Assembly (NCBI GenBank): GCA_003142475.1
Contig: PLMK01000071.1
Location: 32,196 to 76,211 of the forward strand
DNA length: 44,016 nucleotides
From: Ignavibacteriota bacterium
GTDB lineage: Bacteria; Bacteroidota; Ignavibacteria; UBA10030
Direction of reading: 5' to 3'
Part shown: positions 31,947 through 40,609 of the stretch, one piece after another
How the letters are laid out: each line of letters starts with the position of its first letter
Position numbering within the stretch: position 1 is the first letter of the stretch
Made by a program: the position numbers and the translations under genes
The notes under the pieces: model-generated
Database searches by the model: none
What the model was told of the DNA's origin: nothing
What the model saw: only the letters and a program-made list of their open reading frames with translations

Positions 31947-32878
31947 TGTCCGTTTTCTCCTTTCATGATCTGTATGAAGTAATCCTCTAGCGATGTCTTT
32001 TGCTGATTCATACTTTCAATTCCTATTCCACCTGCACGGAGGATATCGATGACCGTATTAAGCTCGGACTTATCATGCAATGAAACAATCAGACTTGTAT
32101 CTTTATACTCAATGGGGAGAATTGTCTGTTGTAATCGCTCCCGAATCTCATTGGTGATAGGAGAAGATAGCTGAACGACATACGCAAGTTTCTGTGTCGT
32201 CAGTTCTGCAATTGTCCCTGTGCGGACTACTTTCCCTTTGTTCAGAATCGCTACACGATCGCAGATCATTTCCACTTCAGAAAGAAGATGCGAGTTTAAG
32301 AAAATAGTTGTGCCTTGCGTTTTCAAATTTAAAAGTAAATCGCGAATTTCTTTCCGTCCAATAGGATCTACGCCATCGGTTGGTTCATCTAAAAATAATA
32401 TCTTCGGGTCGTTAATCAGCGCTTGTGCAAGTCCAAGCCGCTGCAGCATACCTTTTGAAAACTTTTTTGTCTTGACCTTTGCCCAGTCCTTCAATCCAAC
32501 TGTCTCGAGAAGTGAATGTGCTTTCTCTTTTAAGGTCGATTCCGGCAAGCCATTCAATCTTCCGAAAAAAATCAATGTATTTTCCGCCGTAAGGAATGCG
32601 GGATAGCGGTGATTTTCTGGTAAATATCCACAATACTCTTTCAACACCCGCTGTCCTAATGGATAACCAAGGACAGTTGCCGAACCTGATGTTGGGTGCA
32701 CGATAGAAAGAATAAGTTTAACGAATGTGGTTTTTCCAGCTCCGTTTGGACCAAGTAAGCCAAAAATTTCCCCCTGCTCAACGGAAAGGGAAACTTTTTC
32801 GAGTGCGGGAATGTTATTTGTTTTGAATGCACTGGAGCGATAGTGCTTTGTGAGGTCAAGTGTTTGAATTACTTCCAT
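31943..32878 (-). CDS. ABC transporter ATP-binding protein
   Basis: 311 residues. Walker A GLLGPNGAGKTTFVK (about 39-53), Q-loop GYLPENHR, signature FSKGMLQRLGLAQAL, Walker B ILFLDEPTDGVDP and the switch His in LNSHLLSEVEM. These are the CcmA/NosF class of ABC-2 ATPases; the C-terminal 80 residues are the usual regulatory extension. It pairs with the overlapping permease gene. It is divergent from rrf2-suf across a 164-bp gap that carries a perfect -10 box TATAAT (complement of 32918-32923), with no good -35 box at 17 bp. Confidence 0.93.
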   Translation of the reverse strand: MEVIQTLDLTKHYRSSAFKTNNIPALEKVSLSVEQGEIFGLLGPNGAGKTTFVKLILSIVHPTSGSATVLGYPLGQRVLKEYCGYLPENHRYPAFLTAENTLIFFGRLNGLPESTLKEKAHSLLETVGLKDWAKVKTKKFSKGMLQRLGLAQALINDPKILFLDEPTDGVDPIGRKEIRDLLLNLKTQGTTIFLNSHLLSEVEMICDRVAILNKGKVVRTGTIAELTTQKLAYVVQLSSPITNEIRERLQQTILPIEYKDTSLIVSLHDKSELNTVIDILRAGGIGIESMNQQKTSLEDYFIQIMKGENGQ

Positions 32879-32982
32879 ATTAGCAACAAGATAAAAAAAA
32901 ATGTCTGCTCTTCAAAGATTATAAAAAAGAGATTTTTGTCGTTGCTTGATTTAATAGAAAAAGAAAAAGATATTTAAACAGG

Positions 32983-33011
32983 AAGAGTCATAAAAAGGAC
33001 TCTTATTTTTT
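32983..33011 (+). promoter_or_regulatory. Terminator-like hairpin in the rrf2 leader region
   Basis: AAGAGTC (32983-32989) pairs with GACTCTT (32998-33004) across an 8-nt loop and is followed by ATTTTTTG. It looks like an intrinsic terminator on the + strand, but no + strand gene lies upstream. If the suf promoter is upstream (for example TATTTA at 32971-32976, a weak box), this could be an attenuator; otherwise it may end antisense-directed or read-through transcripts. Confidence 0.35.
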
Positions 33012-33019
33012 GATGTAAT

Positions 33020-33040
33020 ATAAGACTGGAATAGTCGTAT
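33020..33040 (+). promoter_or_regulatory. Rrf2/IscR-type operator at the rrf2-suf start
   Basis: A 21-bp dyad ATA-n-GACT-n5-AGTC-n-TAT, seven matching bases in each half. It ends 2 bp before the rrf2 ATG at 33043. GACT-n5-AGTC with flanking ATA and TAT resembles the IscR type 1 consensus, and the first gene encodes an Rrf2 protein, so autorepression of the suf operon is the likely function. TAATAT at 33016-33021 could be the -10 box, overlapped by the operator. Confidence 0.6.
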
Positions 33041-33042
33041 TT

Positions 33043-33447
33043 ATGCTTCAACTCTCAAAAAAAGTGGAATACGGTTTAATCGCTCTTCGGCACATGGCTA
33101 TGAATCCGCGAGGACAAGTGTTCGCTGCAAAAGAAATTGCGGTGAAGTTCGATATTTCATATGAACTGCTCGCAAAGGTTTTGCAGAAACTGACAAAAGC
33201 CGGAGTTGTTATTTCAACGCAGGGAATGCACGGTGGATATTCGCTTGCGAAAAAACCGAATGAATTACGGGTCTCAAGCATCATAAGTGTTATTGAAGAA
33301 GAAAGGCCGACGATTGCTGAATGCTATGCCGAAGGCGGAGAAGACTGTTCTATCTTTAATGCTTGCACGATTCGCAAACCGCTCGGGAAAATGCAGCACA
33401 ATCTGAATTTACTTCTTGAAAACACAACACTGGAGCAAATTGTGTGA
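33043..33447 (+). CDS. Rrf2-family Fe-S-responsive regulator of the suf operon
   Basis: 134 residues. An N-terminal winged helix-turn-helix ([19 protein letters not shown], then [27 protein letters not shown]) and the wing [12 protein letters not shown] match Rrf2/IscR proteins. Three cysteines, C94, C102 and C108 (C-x7-C-x5-C), sit where IscR has its [2Fe-2S] ligands C92, C98 and C104, although the first spacing is two residues longer. It is the first gene of the suf run, 22 bp before sufB, so it probably senses cluster status and represses suf when clusters suffice. A dyad operator lies directly before its start. Length is somewhat short of IscR (162) but normal for SufR-type Rrf2 proteins. 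Confidence 0.88.
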
Positions 33448-33469
33448 CGGTCTGCAGACTGAGAAATTT

Positions 33470-34915
33470 ATGAACAATGAAACAAATACCATAGAAGAAT
33501 TTGCCGCTCAAGAATATAAGTACGGATTTGTCACAGACATTGAAGCTGATTCAGCACCTCCCGGTTTAAACGAGGACATTATTCGTTTGATTTCTTCAAA
33601 GAAGCAGGAGCCGGTTTGGTTGCTTGAATGGCGGCTGAAGGCATTTCAGCATTGGCAAACGATGGAAGAACCGCATTGGCAGAATATAAAGTATCCGCCA
33701 ATTGACTATCAGGCGATAGTCTATTACTCGGCACCGAAACAAAAACCACAGCTCAAAGATTTATCGCAAGTAGATCCGGAACTGCTGAAGACGTACGATA
33801 AACTTGGTATTCCTCTTCGCGAACAGGAATGGCTCGCCGGTGTTGCCGTGGATGCTGTGTTTGATAGCGTTTCGGTGGCAACAACATTTAAGGAGAAGCT
33901 GAAAGAGCTCGGAATAATATTCGGTTCTTTTTCAGATGCAGTCCATGAACATCCGGATTTAGTAAAAAAATACCTTGGTTCTGTAGTACCGGCGAATGAT
34001 AATTATTTTGCTGCACTGAACTCTGCGGTATTCAGTGATGGTTCGTTTTGCTTCATCCCCAAAGGTGTTCGCTGTCCGATGGAATTGTCAACATACTTTC
34101 GTATTAACGCTTCATCAACAGGACAATTTGAGCGAACGCTCATCGTTGCGGAAGAAGGCGCGCAGGTGAGTTATTTAGAAGGATGCACTGCACCAATGCG
34201 AGATAAAAATCAATTACATGCGGCAGTGGTAGAATTGGTCGCTTTAGATAATGCGAAGATAAAATATTCGACAGTGCAGAATTGGTACCCCGGCGACAAA
34301 GAAGGACGCGGAGGTATTTACAACTTTGTAACAAAGCGCGGTAAATGTGCCGGAGTGAATTCAAAAATTTCATGGACACAGGTAGAAACCGGTTCGGCGA
34401 TCACTTGGAAATATCCAAGCGTGTTGCTGATAGGTGATAGTTCTGTTGGCGAATTTTATTCTGTTGCGGTTGTCAATAATTACCAGCAAGCAGATACTGG
34501 TACAAAGATGATTCACATCGGGAAAAATACGAAGAGCACAATTGTTTCGAAAGGAATTTCGGCGGGACACGGACAGAATTCCTATCGCGGATTAGTAGAG
34601 ATGAAAAAGGGTGCAGTGAACGCGCGTAATTATTCCCAGTGCGACTCGCTGCTATTAGGAGACAAATGCGGTGCACATACGTTTCCTTACATCGAAGTGA
34701 AAAACACTTCCGCTAAAGCCGAGCACGAGGCAACAACATCAAAAATCGGCGACGACCAAATATTTTATTGTAAACAACGAGGACTTTCTGCGGAAGATGC
34801 TGTGAATCTGATTGTCAATGGTTTTTGCAAAGAAGTATTCCGTGAATTACCAATGGAGTTTGCGGTTGAGGCGCAGAAATTACTTGGAGTGAGTTTGGAA
34901 GGAAGTGTTGGGTAA
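33470..34915 (+). CDS. sufB: Fe-S cluster assembly scaffold SufB
   Basis: 481 residues. SufB, with SufC and SufD, builds [4Fe-4S] clusters. The start is the ATG at 33470, 22 bp after rrf2; a TTG at 33416 would overlap rrf2 and add residues foreign to the family. Key residues: the SufS-accepting cysteine at C391 in [15 protein letters not shown], the [13 protein letters not shown] segment that holds the His/Glu used for cluster assembly, and [22 protein letters not shown] in the core. Length equals the family norm. First scaffold gene in the sufBCDSUAT order. Confidence 0.96.
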
Positions 34916-35008: not shown

Positions 35009-35773
35009 ATGAGTTTGCTAGAAATAAAAAATCTGCATGCGAGTGTAAATGGAAACGAAATCTTACGCGGCATCAATTTAACAGTGAATGCAGGAGAAGT
35101 ACATGCAATAATGGGACCGAACGGTTCAGGAAAGAGTACACTTGCCGGAGTGCTTGCTGGGCGTGAAGCATATACCGTAACCGACGGTCAAGTTTTATAC
35201 AAAGGAAATAATTTGTTCGACATGGTTCCGGAAGAACGAGCACGCGAGGGATTGTTTCTTGCGTTTCAATACCCGGTCGAAATTCCTGGCGTGAATAACT
35301 CCTATTTTCTCAAGGAATCGCTCAACGCTATTCGCAAGCACAAAGGATTAGAACAGCTTGATGCAATTGATTTTCTTGCGCTCATCAAACAGAAAGTAAA
35401 AATAGTGGAGATGGATGAAAGTTTTTTAAATCGTCCTGTGAACGAAGGATTTTCCGGCGGTGAAAAGAAACGCAACGAAATATTCCACATGGCTGTGCTG
35501 GAACCAATGTTGTCGATATTAGATGAAACAGATTCCGGTCTCGACATCGACGCGCTCAGAATCGTTTCGGAAGGTGTGAACAAACTCCGCTCAAAGGAAA
35601 ATGCAACAATTATCGTGACTCATTATCAGCGGCTGCTCAATTATATCATTCCGGATGTTGTGCATGTAATGAAGGATGGAAGATTAGTCAAATCCGGCGG
35701 TAAAGAACTCGCGTTGGAACTTGAAGACCGCGGATACGATTGGGTGCACGAAGAAGCGGGGCAAACAGTATAA
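35009..35773 (+). CDS. sufC: Fe-S assembly ATPase SufC
   Basis: 254 residues, the ABC-type ATPase of the SufBCD complex. Walker [10 protein letters not shown] at 36-44, signature FSGGEKK at 148-154, Walker B ending in D172-E173 ([12 protein letters not shown]) and the switch H205. The DETDSGLD form and [12 protein letters not shown] are diagnostic for SufC and not for transport ABC proteins. Its own Shine-Dalgarno (AAGGA near 34995) precedes the ATG at 35009. The 93-bp gap after sufB is unusually long for this operon and contains the heptad array. Confidence 0.97.
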
Positions 35774-35791: not shown

Positions 35792-37123
35792 ATGCAGGTA
35801 ATTAATCAAAATATTAAATGGTATCAATCAAAATTTGAGGCATTTGAGCAAAGTTTGAATGGTGCAAAGTCAACGTCAGTACATACGATTCGCCGTGACG
35901 CAATGCACCGGTTCGTTGAACTCGGCTTTCCGACAACACGGCAGGAGGAGTGGCGCTTCACAAACATTTTGCCAATCACCACGATAGAATTTCAGCCAAT
36001 TCTTAGGTATGAATTGAATGGAGTGACAAAAAAAGACATTCAACGGTATATGCTGGATAATGTGTTGCAGTTAGTATTCATTGATGGAATGTTTTCAATG
36101 GAATTATCAAATATTAATTCGCATCCAATAGGTATAACAGCTGGAAGTTTGACAGAAATGTCGAGAGAACATCCGGAAACAATTCGGTCATACATCAATA
36201 ATATGGTAATGGGTGAGGAGAATGCTTTCACCACGCTCAATACAGCTTTTTTGTGGGATGGTGCTTTTATTTCGGTGCCGCGAGGAATTGTTCTAGAAAA
36301 TCCGATTCAACTTCTTTTTGTTGCAACTGATCGTGAGAAAGTTTATGCCGCTCAACCCAGAAATTTTATCATTGCGGGAATCGATAGCCAATTTAAAATT
36401 GTCGAGACTTATGTCGGTCTTGCTAAAAATACATATCTGACAAACACGGTTACGGAAATACTGCTTTGTGATAATTCCATTGTCGAGCATGACAAGTTTC
36501 AAATAGAAGGCATCAACGCGTATCATATTGGAACGACACACGTGCAGATGAATGCGGCAAGCCGTTACACTTCGAACGTGATCTCTCTTAGCGGTTCAAT
36601 TGTTCGGAACAACATAACCGCTCGTTTCAATGCTGAAAGTGCTGAGTGCATACTCAATGGATTGTCGCTCGGCAGCGGAATGCAGCTAATTGATAATCAT
36701 ACAGTCATTGATCACGCAAAGCCGCACTGCAGCAGTCATGAATTGTACAAGTCGATTCTGGATGGTGCATCCAAGGGTGTTTTCAACGGGAAGGTATTTG
36801 TCAGAAAAGATGCACAGAAGACCGACGCGAAACAGACGAATAAAACGCTGCTGTTGTCCGATGAGGCAACGATGAACACGAAACCGCAATTGGAAATATT
36901 TGCGGACGATGTGAAGTGCACACACGGTGCCACAGTTGGACAATTGGATGATGAACAAATATTCTATTTACGTTCACGCGGTATCGATCTTAATGCTGCA
37001 CGCGATATCCTCACTTCTGCATTTGCGGGTGATGTGATTAACCGGATAACGATTGAACCATTTCGCTCGCAAGTAGAGCGGATCATTCACGATCGATTAA
37101 ACAATAACCACACTTCAAGCTAA
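35792..37123 (+). CDS. sufD: Fe-S assembly protein SufD
   Basis: 443 residues, the SufB paralog that completes the SufBC2D scaffold and helps iron acquisition. N-terminal TRQEEWRFTNILPI is typical SufD; the beta-helix core ends with C376-T-H378-G (KCTHGATVGQLDDEQIFYL), the conserved SufD His used at the SufB-SufD interface, followed by the LRSRGIDLNAAR helix. It starts 18 bp after sufC and ends 5 bp before sufS. Length is normal. The call is sure because both the N-terminal and C-terminal SufD signatures are present. Confidence 0.95.
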   Translation: MQVINQNIKWYQSKFEAFEQSLNGAKSTSVHTIRRDAMHRFVELGFPTTRQEEWRFTNILPITTIEFQPILRYELNGVTKKDIQRYMLDNVLQLVFIDGMFSMELSNINSHPIGITAGSLTEMSREHPETIRSYINNMVMGEENAFTTLNTAFLWDGAFISVPRGIVLENPIQLLFVATDREKVYAAQPRNFIIAGIDSQFKIVETYVGLAKNTYLTNTVTEILLCDNSIVEHDKFQIEGINAYHIGTTHVQMNAASRYTSNVISLSGSIVRNNITARFNAESAECILNGLSLGSGMQLIDNHTVIDHAKPHCSSHELYKSILDGASKGVFNGKVFVRKDAQKTDAKQTNKTLLLSDEATMNTKPQLEIFADDVKCTHGATVGQLDDEQIFYLRSRGIDLNAARDILTSAFAGDVINRITIEPFRSQVERIIHDRLNNNHTSS

Positions 37124-37128
37124 CAAGC

Positions 37129-38391
37129 ATGAAAAATACTTCAACGATAGAGCAACAAACTAGGATCGATTTTCCGGTAGAAAAGATTCGGAGAGATTTT
37201 CCAATTCTATCTATAAGCGTTCATGGTAAGCCATTAGTGTATCTTGATAATGCAGCGTCAGCGCAAAAGCCTAATTTGGTGATAGATACAATCAAGAAGT
37301 ACTATCTCACAGAAAATTCTAATGTGCATCGCGGCGTGCATTATCTTAGTGAATTGGCGACGAAGAAATATGAAGCAGCGCGCGTGACTGTGCAAAAATT
37401 CTTGAATGCTGAATCAGAACGTGAAATTATTTTTGTCCGCGGTACAACAGAAGCAATAAACCTTGTCGCAGCAACATTTGGCAGAAAGAATGTTCAAGCT
37501 GGTGACGAAGTGCTTATCACTGGATTAGAGCATCATTCTAATATTGTTCCATGGCAGATGCTGTGCGAAGAAAAAGGAGCAAGACTTCGCGTTGCTCCGA
37601 TTAACGATGATGGCGAAGTTGTTCTGGAAGAATTCGCTCGTTTGCTTTCGGGCAAAACCAAGATTGCGGCCATAAGTCATATTTCCAACGCACTTGGCAC
37701 CATCAATCCAGTTAAGCAAATGATTGAGATGGCGCATCAACAGGGAGTTCCTGTGCTGGTGGATGGAGCACAAGCTGTTCCGCATATTCGCATTGATGTG
37801 CGTGATCTTGATGCGGATTTTTACACTTTTTCTTCTCACAAAATTTTTGGTCCAACTGGATTAGGAATACTATACGGCAAAACCAATCTTCTTGAATCTA
37901 TGCCGCCATATCAAGGCGGGGGCGATATGATCAAGTCGGTGACGTTTGAAAAAACAATTTTCAACGATATCCCACATAAATATGAAGCGGGAACACCGCA
38001 TATAGCCGGCGCAATTGGTTTGGCGGCGGCAATCGATTATATGAACTCATTGGATTGGGATGTTGTTCAGCAATATGAACAAACGCTGCTCCTTTTGGCG
38101 CACGAAAAACTCGCTGCAATTCAAGGTTTGAGAATAATCGGAACGGCAAAAGAAAAAGCAGGGGTTGTGTCGTTTGTATTGGATGGAGTTCATCCTCATG
38201 ATATCGGTACGATTCTCGATCAAGAAGGAATAGCAATTCGTACGGGACACCATTGTGCACAGCCGGTAATGCAGAAGTATGGCATTCCGGCAACGGCACG
38301 GGCATCGTTTGCTTTTTACAATACGATAGAAGAAATAGATACTCTTATTCGCGGCATTCAGAAAGTGAAAGAGGTATTCGGGCATGTCTGA
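37129..38391 (+). CDS. sufS: Cysteine desulfurase SufS
   Basis: 420 residues, PLP enzyme that releases sulfur from cysteine for Fe-S assembly. PLP lysine K238 in FSSHKIFGPTG; the catalytic cysteine C376 in RTGHHCAQP; the cofactor-stacking His in GLEHHSNIVPW (135/136); D212 in VDGAQAVPH. The RTGHHCAQP form marks the group II SufS/CsdA type, which needs a SufU or SufE partner; sufU follows directly and overlaps by 8 bp. Start ATG 5 bp after sufD. An N-terminal extension of about 15 residues is present, not unusual. Confidence 0.96.
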   Translation: MKNTSTIEQQTRIDFPVEKIRRDFPILSISVHGKPLVYLDNAASAQKPNLVIDTIKKYYLTENSNVHRGVHYLSELATKKYEAARVTVQKFLNAESEREIIFVRGTTEAINLVAATFGRKNVQAGDEVLITGLEHHSNIVPWQMLCEEKGARLRVAPINDDGEVVLEEFARLLSGKTKIAAISHISNALGTINPVKQMIEMAHQQGVPVLVDGAQAVPHIRIDVRDLDADFYTFSSHKIFGPTGLGILYGKTNLLESMPPYQGGGDMIKSVTFEKTIFNDIPHKYEAGTPHIAGAIGLAAAIDYMNSLDWDVVQQYEQTLLLLAHEKLAAIQGLRIIGTAKEKAGVVSFVLDGVHPHDIGTILDQEGIAIRTGHHCAQPVMQKYGIPATARASFAFYNTIEEIDTLIRGIQKVKEVFGHV

Positions 38392-38836
38392 TCTTAAAGC
38401 ATTATATCAGGAAATTATTCTCGATCATAACCGGAATCCTCGCAACTTCAAAAAAATGAAAGATGCAAGTTGTTCGGTAGATGGATATAATCCGCTCTGC
38501 GGCGATCACTACACCATCTATCTTAAACTGGATAAAGGTGTTATTACAGAAATTTCTTTTCAAGGATCTGGCTGTGCGATTTCAAAAGCATCTGCGTCTG
38601 TCATGAGCACGGTGTTAAAAGGGAAAACGCGCGCAGAAGCTGAAGTATTATTTGAAAAATTTCATCATCTCGTGCGCGGTGAAAACAAAAACGAGAATAG
38701 TGCAGAAGAATTTGGAAAACTGGCGGCATTTGCCGGTGTAAGTGAGTTTCCTGCGCGAGTCAAATGCGCAATTCTTCCATGGCATACAATGAAGAACGCA
38801 CTGGAAGAAAAAAAGGATATTGTATCTACGGAATAA
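38384..38836 (+). CDS. sufU: Zinc-dependent sulfurtransferase SufU
   Basis: 150 residues. SufU accepts persulfide from SufS in SUF systems without SufE. The Zn ligands are C39 and D41 (NPLCGD), C64 (GSGCAISKAS) and C128 (RVKCAILPW), and the 18-20-residue insert typical of SufU compared with IscU (GENKNENSAEEF region) is present. LYQEIILDHNRNPRNF at the N-terminus is a family mark. The start overlaps the 3' end of sufS by 8 bp, so translation is coupled and the pairing with SufS is direct. Confidence 0.95.
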   Translation: MSDLKALYQEIILDHNRNPRNFKKMKDASCSVDGYNPLCGDHYTIYLKLDKGVITEISFQGSGCAISKASASVMSTVLKGKTRAEAEVLFEKFHHLVRGENKNENSAEEFGKLAAFAGVSEFPARVKCAILPWHTMKNALEEKKDIVSTE

Positions 38837-38873: not shown

Positions 38874-39251
38874 ATGAATGAACAGCAGGAACAAACAGTG
38901 GCACAAGAAGTAAATATTACTCCAGAAGCGGCAAAAGAAATCTTGAAGATACGTGCAGAGAATCAGATTCCTGATTCGCATGCATTACGTATGGGAGTGA
39001 AAGAAGGTGGATGCTGCGGTATTTCTTACGTATTGGGCTTTGATGAAAAGGCCGCAGAGACAGATAAAATATTTCAGGCTGAAGGCATCACGGTTTATGT
39101 CGATGCAGCAAGCTTGATGCATCTTTCCGGAGCTACTTTAGAATTTGTCAGTGGGCCGAATGGAAGCGGGTTCAAGTTTGATAATCCAAATGACCAAAAA
39201 TCATGCGGCTGCGGTGATAGCGATTGCGGTGACGGTGGATGTTGTGGATAG
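38874..39251 (+). CDS. sufA: A-type Fe-S carrier (SufA/IscA/ErpA family) with Cys-rich tail
   Basis: 125 residues. A-type carriers pass Fe-S clusters to targets. The three canonical cysteines are C47 (EGGCCG, normally GGCSG), C111 and C113 (CGCG). Beyond the usual end the chain continues with GDSDCGDGGCCG, adding C118, C123 and C124, and C48 sits next to C47, so there are seven cysteines in total. A normal family member is about 105-115 residues with three. The extra tail could store or bind metal or act in cluster binding. It is 37 bp after sufU and 15 bp before sufT. Confidence 0.88.
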   Translation: MNEQQEQTVAQEVNITPEAAKEILKIRAENQIPDSHALRMGVKEGGCCGISYVLGFDEKAAETDKIFQAEGITVYVDAASLMHLSGATLEFVSGPNGSGFKFDNPNDQKSCGCGDSDCGDGGCCG

Positions 39252-39266
39252 TAACAGGATGCTGTA

Positions 39267-39659
39267 ATGAATATAGATGAAAAAAAAATATCACAACCAG
39301 AAATTGAATTGGTTAATAAAACTGCTGAGGTTTCATCTTTGCCGAGTGTGACCGATCGACATATTTGGGATGCATTACGCCAATGTTACGACCCAGAGAT
39401 TCCAGTAAATATTGTTGACCTTGGGCTAGTATACGAAGTAAAAGTAGAAGAAGAATTGCCGGGCGATGCGAATGTTTACATCAGAATGACATTGACGGCA
39501 CCGGGATGCGGCATGGGACCGATGATTGCAGCTGATGTAAAACGGCGTGTTCAGCAAATTCGTGGTGTAAGTAATGTACTGGTAGAATTAGTTTTTGATC
39601 CTATCTGGAATCCGGATATGATGACCGAAGCGGCAAAACTCACACTCAATATGGGCTAA
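39267..39659 (+). CDS. sufT: SufT/MIP18 (DUF59) Fe-S maturation factor
   Basis: 130 residues. The MIP18/DUF59 fold is clear from about residue 30: DALRQCYDPEIPVNIVDLGLVYEV (D42-P45 region) and LTAPGCGMG with the reactive C81, then VFDPIWNPDMMTEAAK. SufT proteins help Fe-S maturation and are common at the end of suf operons in Bacteroidota and Firmicutes. About 30 residues precede the domain, a longer N-terminus than the minimal family. It is the last suf gene; the gap downstream is 323 bp. Confidence 0.93.
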   Translation: MNIDEKKISQPEIELVNKTAEVSSLPSVTDRHIWDALRQCYDPEIPVNIVDLGLVYEVKVEEELPGDANVYIRMTLTAPGCGMGPMIAADVKRRVQQIRGVSNVLVELVFDPIWNPDMMTEAAKLTLNMG

Positions 39660-39982: not shown

Positions 39983-40609
39983 ATGGCATACGAATGGAAG
40001 TTCAATAAGCGTCCGTACTCAGATGAAGAAGCAAAGAAACTTCTTTCTAACGTTATGAGCCCGGAGACAACCGACTGGCACTACAATACGCACCAGAAGG
40101 GATATGTAACTGCACTGAACAATATCGAAAAAGCTCTAGAAACAGCTGACCGCTCTGCCGCCAACGGCAACTACAGCATTATTGGCGAGTTGAAGCGGCG
40201 ATTCAGCTGGAATCATTCAGGTGCATTATTGCATGATATTTATTGGGATGTGCTTGGCGGCGATGGCGATCCATCGAAAGGTCCGGAAATTAAGTCGGCA
40301 ATCGAAAAAGATTTTGGTTCGTTTGAAGCTTGGAAAGCAGACTTTAAAGCTACAGCAATTTCTGCGAAGCTTGGCGGTTGGGGATTGCTTCTGTTCGATC
40401 GTCTTTACTCCGGTCGTTTACTCAATGCGCTGGTTGATGAGCACCAATATGGCGCGATCTGGGGTGCAGTGCCTTTAATCCCACTTGATGTATTTGAGCA
40501 TGCTTATTATCACAAAGATGGTCCTGCCCGCGCAAAGTTCATTGACAACTTCATTGCGAATCTACATTGGGGAAGGATTAACGAGCGGTATAAGAAGTTA
40601 GTGAAATAA
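39983..40609 (+). CDS. Superoxide dismutase, Fe/Mn family
   Basis: 208 residues. Dismutates superoxide to peroxide and oxygen in the cytoplasm. Metal ligands: H33 (DWHYNTHQKGYV), H84 (LLHDIYW), D169 and H173 (PLDVFEHAYY). The helix before H84 reads FSWNHSGALLH rather than the usual bacterial AAQxWNHxFYW, and HQYGAIWG replaces the common second-shell Gln segment; this resembles haloarchaeal-type enzymes, so Fe or Mn cannot be chosen. A Shine-Dalgarno AAAGGA lies 9 bases before the ATG. It is separated from suf by a 323-bp gap and ends at a strong terminator, so it is probably its own unit. Confidence 0.93.
   Translation: MAYEWKFNKRPYSDEEAKKLLSNVMSPETTDWHYNTHQKGYVTALNNIEKALETADRSAANGNYSIIGELKRRFSWNHSGALLHDIYWDVLGGDGDPSKGPEIKSAIEKDFGSFEAWKADFKATAISAKLGGWGLLLFDRLYSGRLLNALVDEHQYGAIWGAVPLIPLDVFEHAYYHKDGPARAKFIDNFIANLHWGRINERYKKLVK

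Follow-up and report, generated by a model that had tools for sequence, protein, structure and literature searches.

The rrf2-suf operon and its regulator

The window, the 44,016-nt stretch of Ignavibacteriota DNA analysed here, carries on its forward strand an operon for Fe-S assembly with the gene order rrf2-sufB-sufC-sufD-sufS-sufU-sufA/iscA-like-sufT-like. The leading gene (33043..33447) encodes a 134-aa Rrf2 regulator with the cysteines C94-x7-C102-x5-C108. It is followed by sufB (33470..34915; NF008773, TIGR01980), sufC (35009..35773; TIGR01978), sufD (35792..37123; TIGR01981), the cysteine desulfurase gene sufS (37129..38391; TIGR01979), sufU (38384..38836; TIGR01994), a gene for an IscA/SufA-type accessory protein (38874..39251; TIGR00049) and a gene for a SufT-like FeS_assembly_P protein (39267..39659; PF01883, with TIGR03406 and TIGR02945 below cut-off). 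SufS also scored 685 bits against the encapsulin-cargo cysteine desulfurase model NF041166, below its cut-off of 800, and a superoxide dismutase gene of the Fe/Mn family is located 3' of the operon on the same strand (39983-40609).

The regulator belongs to the Rrf2 superfamily (TIGR00738, 99.5 bits, cut-off 73.3; PF02082, 107.1 bits, cut-off 30), and its predicted fold (mean pLDDT 77.6, with the cysteine loop below 50) matches solved Rrf2 proteins, the nearest being CymR, NsrR, RsrR and IscR. Identity with IscR is ruled out by model score and ligand set: the protein reached 61 of the required 207.55 bits for TIGR02010 and 41.8 of 275 bits for NF008110, the IscR equivalog models, and where IscR has the ligands C92, C98, C104 and H107 (C-x5-C-x5-C-x2-H) it reads C-x7-C-x5-C and ends in C108-T-I-R, without a histidine at +3. 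The cysteine spacing given in the preliminary description of this DNA is correct, and was invariant in 57/57 proteins. Scores were also below the cut-offs of the RirA and NsrR models (57.6 versus 182 for NsrR model NF008240). The second best NCBIfam model was TIGR02944 (suf_reg_Xantho), a family of Rrf2 regulators likewise linked to suf operons, although the 82 bits obtained fall short of its curated cut-off of 110.65.

Glu43 of IscR is reported to prevent the apo-protein from binding type 1 sites (PMC3899308, PMC5411485). The window regulator has Ala44 at this place, and it resembles Streptomyces coelicolor NsrR in having Ala44/Lys45 at the places of IscR Glu43/Gln44 (PMC5411485). A further likeness is the acidic residue at the fourth-ligand place, where the nearly invariant Glu9 aligns by eye with Asp8, which is described as ligating the cluster in S. 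coelicolor NsrR (PMC5411485). That protein differs, however, in sensing NO, in binding other operators and in its C-x5-C-x5-C spacing. Our literature search on Rrf2 proteins in these phyla yielded nothing useful.

The operator ahead of rrf2

A dyad, ATAAGACTGGAATAGTCGTAT, occupies positions 33020-33040. As first described, it ends 2 bp 5' of the rrf2 start codon (ATG at 33043) and is symmetric at 7+7 positions (ATA-A-GACT-GGAAT-AGTC-G-TAT). Symmetry alone was rejected as evidence, as five dyads of the same geometry were observed in the window and a mean of 4.2 in 20 dinucleotide shuffles; this is the level expected by chance, and it is the comparison among relatives that makes the dyad convincing. 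Our sample of rrf2 loci comprised 57 order genomes, then 80 named records (chiefly Ignavibacteriae, Ignavibacteriales and Bacteroidetes MAGs) and approximately 80 more loci, of which almost all belong to the other families of the class; these loci share ancestry, and locus counts are not independent events. Families and loci are referred to by our own labels, f1 being the family of the window.

In the comparison of relatives proposed in the preliminary description, the operator was kept at rrf2-suf in 57/57 loci of the order, with a degenerate copy in L069 (12/18, without T-tract) as the weakest. The conserved element is longer than the dyad it contains, namely a 25-bp palindrome at 33018..33042 (AAATA-N-GACT-N5-AGTC-N-TATTT), with the order-wide consensus AWATANGACY-N5-RGTCNKATWT. 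The position profile of the 57 loci, A[AT]ATA[GA]GAC[TC]-N5-[AG]GTCG[TG]AT[TA]T, is symmetric, with the G and C of GAC and of GTC at 100% and a nearly random central N5, which together are the signature of a palindrome bound by protein. At a cut-off of 13/18 the operator was also found in f9, f10, f11, f13, f14, f15, f21, f24, f25 and f29, and was absent from the sampled loci of f8, f17, f18, f19, f26 and f30. From this comparison, reading the dyad as a conserved operator is well supported, and we infer that the adjacent Rrf2 regulator binds it.

The resemblance to an IscR type 1 site, also suggested earlier, holds in part. The core GACT-N5-AGTC and its spacing are identical to those of the published consensus ATASYYGACTRWWWYAGTCRRSTAT (PMC3899308), but the flanks are not, the 57 loci having AAATA-N1/N1-TATTT where IscR type 1 sites have ATA-N3/N3-TAT. 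From the sequences compared, what links the system to IscR is the operator core, and not membership of the IscR family. As with IscR of E. coli and P. aeruginosa at the isc promoter, an Rrf2 protein would autoregulate an Fe-S assembly operon, but the P. aeruginosa sites overlap the promoter, whereas the operator described here is placed in the predicted leader, after a terminator-like element. The case also places an operator with an IscR-type core far outside the Proteobacteria, where its putative regulator has cluster ligands other than those of IscR.

GACT-N5-AGTC occurs once in the whole window, and the genome-wide scan that had been called for, done by pattern, returned the rrf2 site as the sole match with 0-1 mismatch in the 3.58 Mb genome. 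A wider regulon was rejected on these grounds, the window's own genome having no further site at 0-1 mismatch. In a sister species (G003), a perfect operator copy is located 5' of a transposase-like gene (L258:1501-1525), perhaps by chance or capture.

Hairpin, T-tract and predicted promoters of the leader

The preliminary description missed a hairpin and T-tract (32983-33011), from which the operator keeps a fixed distance of 12 nt. The terminator-like hairpin, AAGAGTC-8-GACTCTT on the forward strand (32983..33004; -8.6 kcal/mol, z -2.4), has a stem that is kept in relatives, and is followed at once by a T-tract (U-tract in the RNA; 33006..33011) that ends exactly 12 nt 5' of GACT; stem-loop and tract together have the form of an intrinsic terminator. 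The same distance of exactly 12 nt between the end of the tract and GACT recurs in 50 of the 56 order loci having a T-tract, and in 32/39 genera. Six bases of this gap are the operator's own flank and the other six have a mean identity of 40% among genera, so the length is kept while the sequence drifts. The distance from operator to ATG, by contrast, is 0-4 nt in f1 and up to 67 nt elsewhere, and the idea that the operator is tied to the start codon was rejected because of this range of 0-67 nt within the order. Family f9 and two reduced genomes are without T-tract.

The hairpin was better than shuffled flanks at p<=0.05 in 42/50 loci of f1-f4 and f6. Its arms vary by lineage (AAGAGTC/GACTCTT, TCGAGGG/CCCTTGA, GATTCCG/CGGAATC, TTTCTCC/GGAGAAA, GAGGC/GCCTC), and 30 distinct 5-bp stem cores were 98% paired, versus a mean of 43% and a maximum of 58% with permuted arms (5000 trials), a figure that is inflated, partly by construction, as the search takes the best stem per locus. 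Within f1 alone the cores were 97.6% paired, versus a permutation maximum of 76.5%. The shuffle test is the fairer measure, and agrees with the pairing percentage. In the window the terminator is weak, with three G-C pairs, an 8-nt loop and six T, which suits a conditional stop. In f1 the arms frequently include GAGTC/GACTC, and with it the four letters of the operator half-site, as in the window hairpin and at the same place in L017-L020, L023, L025, L027, L034, L037 and L039.

Many genera of f1 have TTGACA-N17/18-TATATT with the -10 ending 29-60 nt 5' of the T-tract, and the gene upstream of rrf2 is divergent in nearly all f1 loci. The window has a predicted sigma70-like promoter at the same place, TTGATT-N17-GATATT on the forward strand (32946..32974), which is weak, not significant alone (p 0.38), and 31 nt from the T-tract; the predicted leader 5' of the hairpin is short. 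With sigma70-like promoters 5' of the hairpin in f1, both hairpin and operator most likely belong to the transcribed leader in that family. The near-leaderless transcript proposed in the preliminary description is not supported and was rejected for f1, given these upstream promoters, and the closeness of operator and ATG on which it drew is specific to f1. The other proposal made there, repression by roadblock, is favoured by the f1 promoters upstream of the operator, although the promoter sequence in the window itself is a weak one.

An overlap of promoter and operator was rejected for f1, as the consensus scan of the window gave no such site and clear f1 promoters are found upstream of the hairpin. 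In other families, inspection by eye showed a -10-like box abutting the operator in f14 and f24, an ECF-like GGAAC-N19-GTTTT abutting it in f10, and a right operator arm reading TAnnTTTG in f11/f21. Given these abutting promoter-like boxes, the terminator-operator leader looks like a derived arrangement of the window's order.

In f2/f3, a small conserved co-directional gene for a CxxC...CxxC protein of approximately 65 aa is located just 5' of the hairpin (L054:1194-1394, L067:1252-1449, L145:2097-2402). Some f10 genomes have tRNA-Glu directly 5' of the hairpin, T-tract and rrf2 operator (L197:351-425, L198:2625-2699, L200:330-402). The hairpin may serve the upstream small gene or tRNA-Glu in these lineages; a role as terminator of the upstream gene was rejected for f1 only, where that gene is divergent.

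Proposed roadblock-coupled attenuation and its alternatives

The operator, the hairpin with its T-tract, their fixed spacing, the kept stem pairing and the upstream promoters of f1 are the sequence features on which our interpretation is built. We propose, at a probability of roughly 0.55, that the adjacent Rrf2 Fe-S sensor has its operator within its own leader, 3' of a weak terminator, and that it acts by roadblock-coupled attenuation. RNA polymerase would start upstream of the hairpin and, with the regulator bound (presumably cluster-loaded, under Fe-S sufficiency), would be halted by Rrf2 once the 3' end of its RNA has reached the U-tract or its immediate neighbourhood. The halted polymerase would give the hairpin time to form, and the complex would be released with a short RNA. 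Upon loss of the cluster the regulator would leave, and polymerase would read through into suf. We infer the halting and the termination and, by analogy with IscR, the direction of the Fe-S signal.

The position of the stall is suggested by geometry. Gln111 EcoRI is reported to stop polymerase 14 nt before its site (PMC5499547), i.e. approximately 17 nt from the site centre, versus 19-24 nt between the U-tract and the operator centre (33030); as the 25-bp Rrf2 site is wider than that of EcoRI, a stall in or beside the U-tract would be expected. Complexes halted by a roadblock are described as able to keep hold of their RNA (streptavidin block, PMC5499547), and queuing of several polymerases is described as letting more of them pass (PMC10310618), which would make a release signal at the stall point useful. 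In the known bacterial roadblock repressors, the stalled polymerase is left for other factors to remove or for trailing polymerases to push through, and a conserved terminator placed where polymerase stalls would build the means of release into the leader itself. The proposed arrangement would resemble that of the roadblock repressors PurR, CodY, CcpA and C.Kpn2I in having its operator in the transcribed region, 3' of the promoter (PMC10310618, PMC6237814), but the parts of those reports available to us describe no terminator locked to the operator. A natural precedent for a roadblock combined with an intrinsic terminator was not found described in the literature covered, to which subscription journals mostly did not belong.

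In termination by RNA polymerase I, a T-rich release element precedes a DNA-bound factor. The likeness to our locus is the T-rich element at a set distance 5' of a DNA-bound obstacle, whereas the RNA polymerase I case concerns the ends of eukaryotic genes, has no hairpin and is not a regulated leader. The fixed spacing and the hairpin make the proposed mechanism testable by a simple in vitro assay.

Among the alternatives, it is conceivable but unlikely that Rrf2 bound in the leader blocks elongation on its own, with the hairpin and T-tract as an insulator or as the terminator of some upstream unit. Natural roadblock repressors that work without terminators are known (PurR, GalR, ArsR, CcpA, CodY and LexA, PMC10310618; C.Kpn2I, PMC6237814), and the co-directional gene or tRNA upstream in f2/f3 and some f10 genomes would fit; but such a block gives no reason for the exact 12-nt spacing, and in f1, where the upstream gene is divergent, only the operon's own transcript is there to be terminated. 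Classical repression of initiation, in which the promoter overlaps the operator, Rrf2 excludes polymerase and the transcript is near-leaderless, appears improbable. In that layout the T-tract would be a -35 or -33 element and TATTT a -10 or -7 element. The boxes abutting the operator and the TAnnTTTG arms in other families of the class speak for it, as does the window's TATTTATG, which is one letter off TAnnTTTG. The consensus scan of 32800-33500, however, yielded no sigma70-like site, the approximately 26 nt from T-tract to TATTT are too long for known spacings, relatives within f1 have GATTT or GATAT instead of TATTT, and the clear f1 promoters are upstream of the hairpin.

Two further readings shift the function of the elements to DNA or to RNA. 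The T-tract could act as a bent A/T tract that aids Rrf2 binding, the hairpin being incidental, and loci with the T-tract or a T-run at 12 nt but no convincing hairpin (some in f5 and f6, and part of f10) accord with this; we regard it as a slim prospect, since the operator is a symmetric palindrome with the tract on one side only, and the stem changes in sequence yet keeps its pairing. Control by RNA, in which the dyad would form a hairpin covering the start codon or serve as an antiterminator, is the least probable reading. The dyad does fold next to the start codon, and the arms of the window hairpin contain the same GACT/AGTC, but the stem that the dyad forms by itself is weak (-3.2 kcal/mol, z -1.0), its letters are kept and not merely its pairing, it is up to 67 nt from the ATG elsewhere, the hairpin arms are unlike it in most genera, and an Rfam search of 20 loci gave no match to a known RNA element.

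The stem of sister family f5 encloses a long loop. Its 5' arm begins 54-61 nt before the T-tract, directly 3' of a sigma70-like -10 whose end is at -65 to -67. Approximately 100 nt 5' of rrf2, most of the loci L057, L064, L066, L126, L128, L131, L135, L139, L154, L242 and L243 also have an ECF-like promoter (G[GA]AAC-N18-GTTA, within -46 to -15) between the two stem arms. Both promoters are predicted, and the choice between them could decide whether the terminator forms: RNA begun at the inner one would not include the 5' arm and would not be terminated, while RNA begun at the outer, housekeeping-type promoter would carry the terminator. Extending roadblock-coupled attenuation to the whole order is more tentative, and we hold it at somewhat less than even odds: the order would regulate Fe-S assembly by operator-coupled termination, with the DNA-bound sensor, at a set distance 3' of the U-tract, turning a leaky terminator on and the inner-promoter transcripts of f5 escaping. 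The f5 stem had p about 0.01-0.03 in 11/19 loci scored and was weaker in the rest, and its arms covary between sublineages (GCTTTCAAAG/TTTTGAAAGC; AGAAGAAC/GTTCTTCT; AGAAGAATT/AATTCTTCT).
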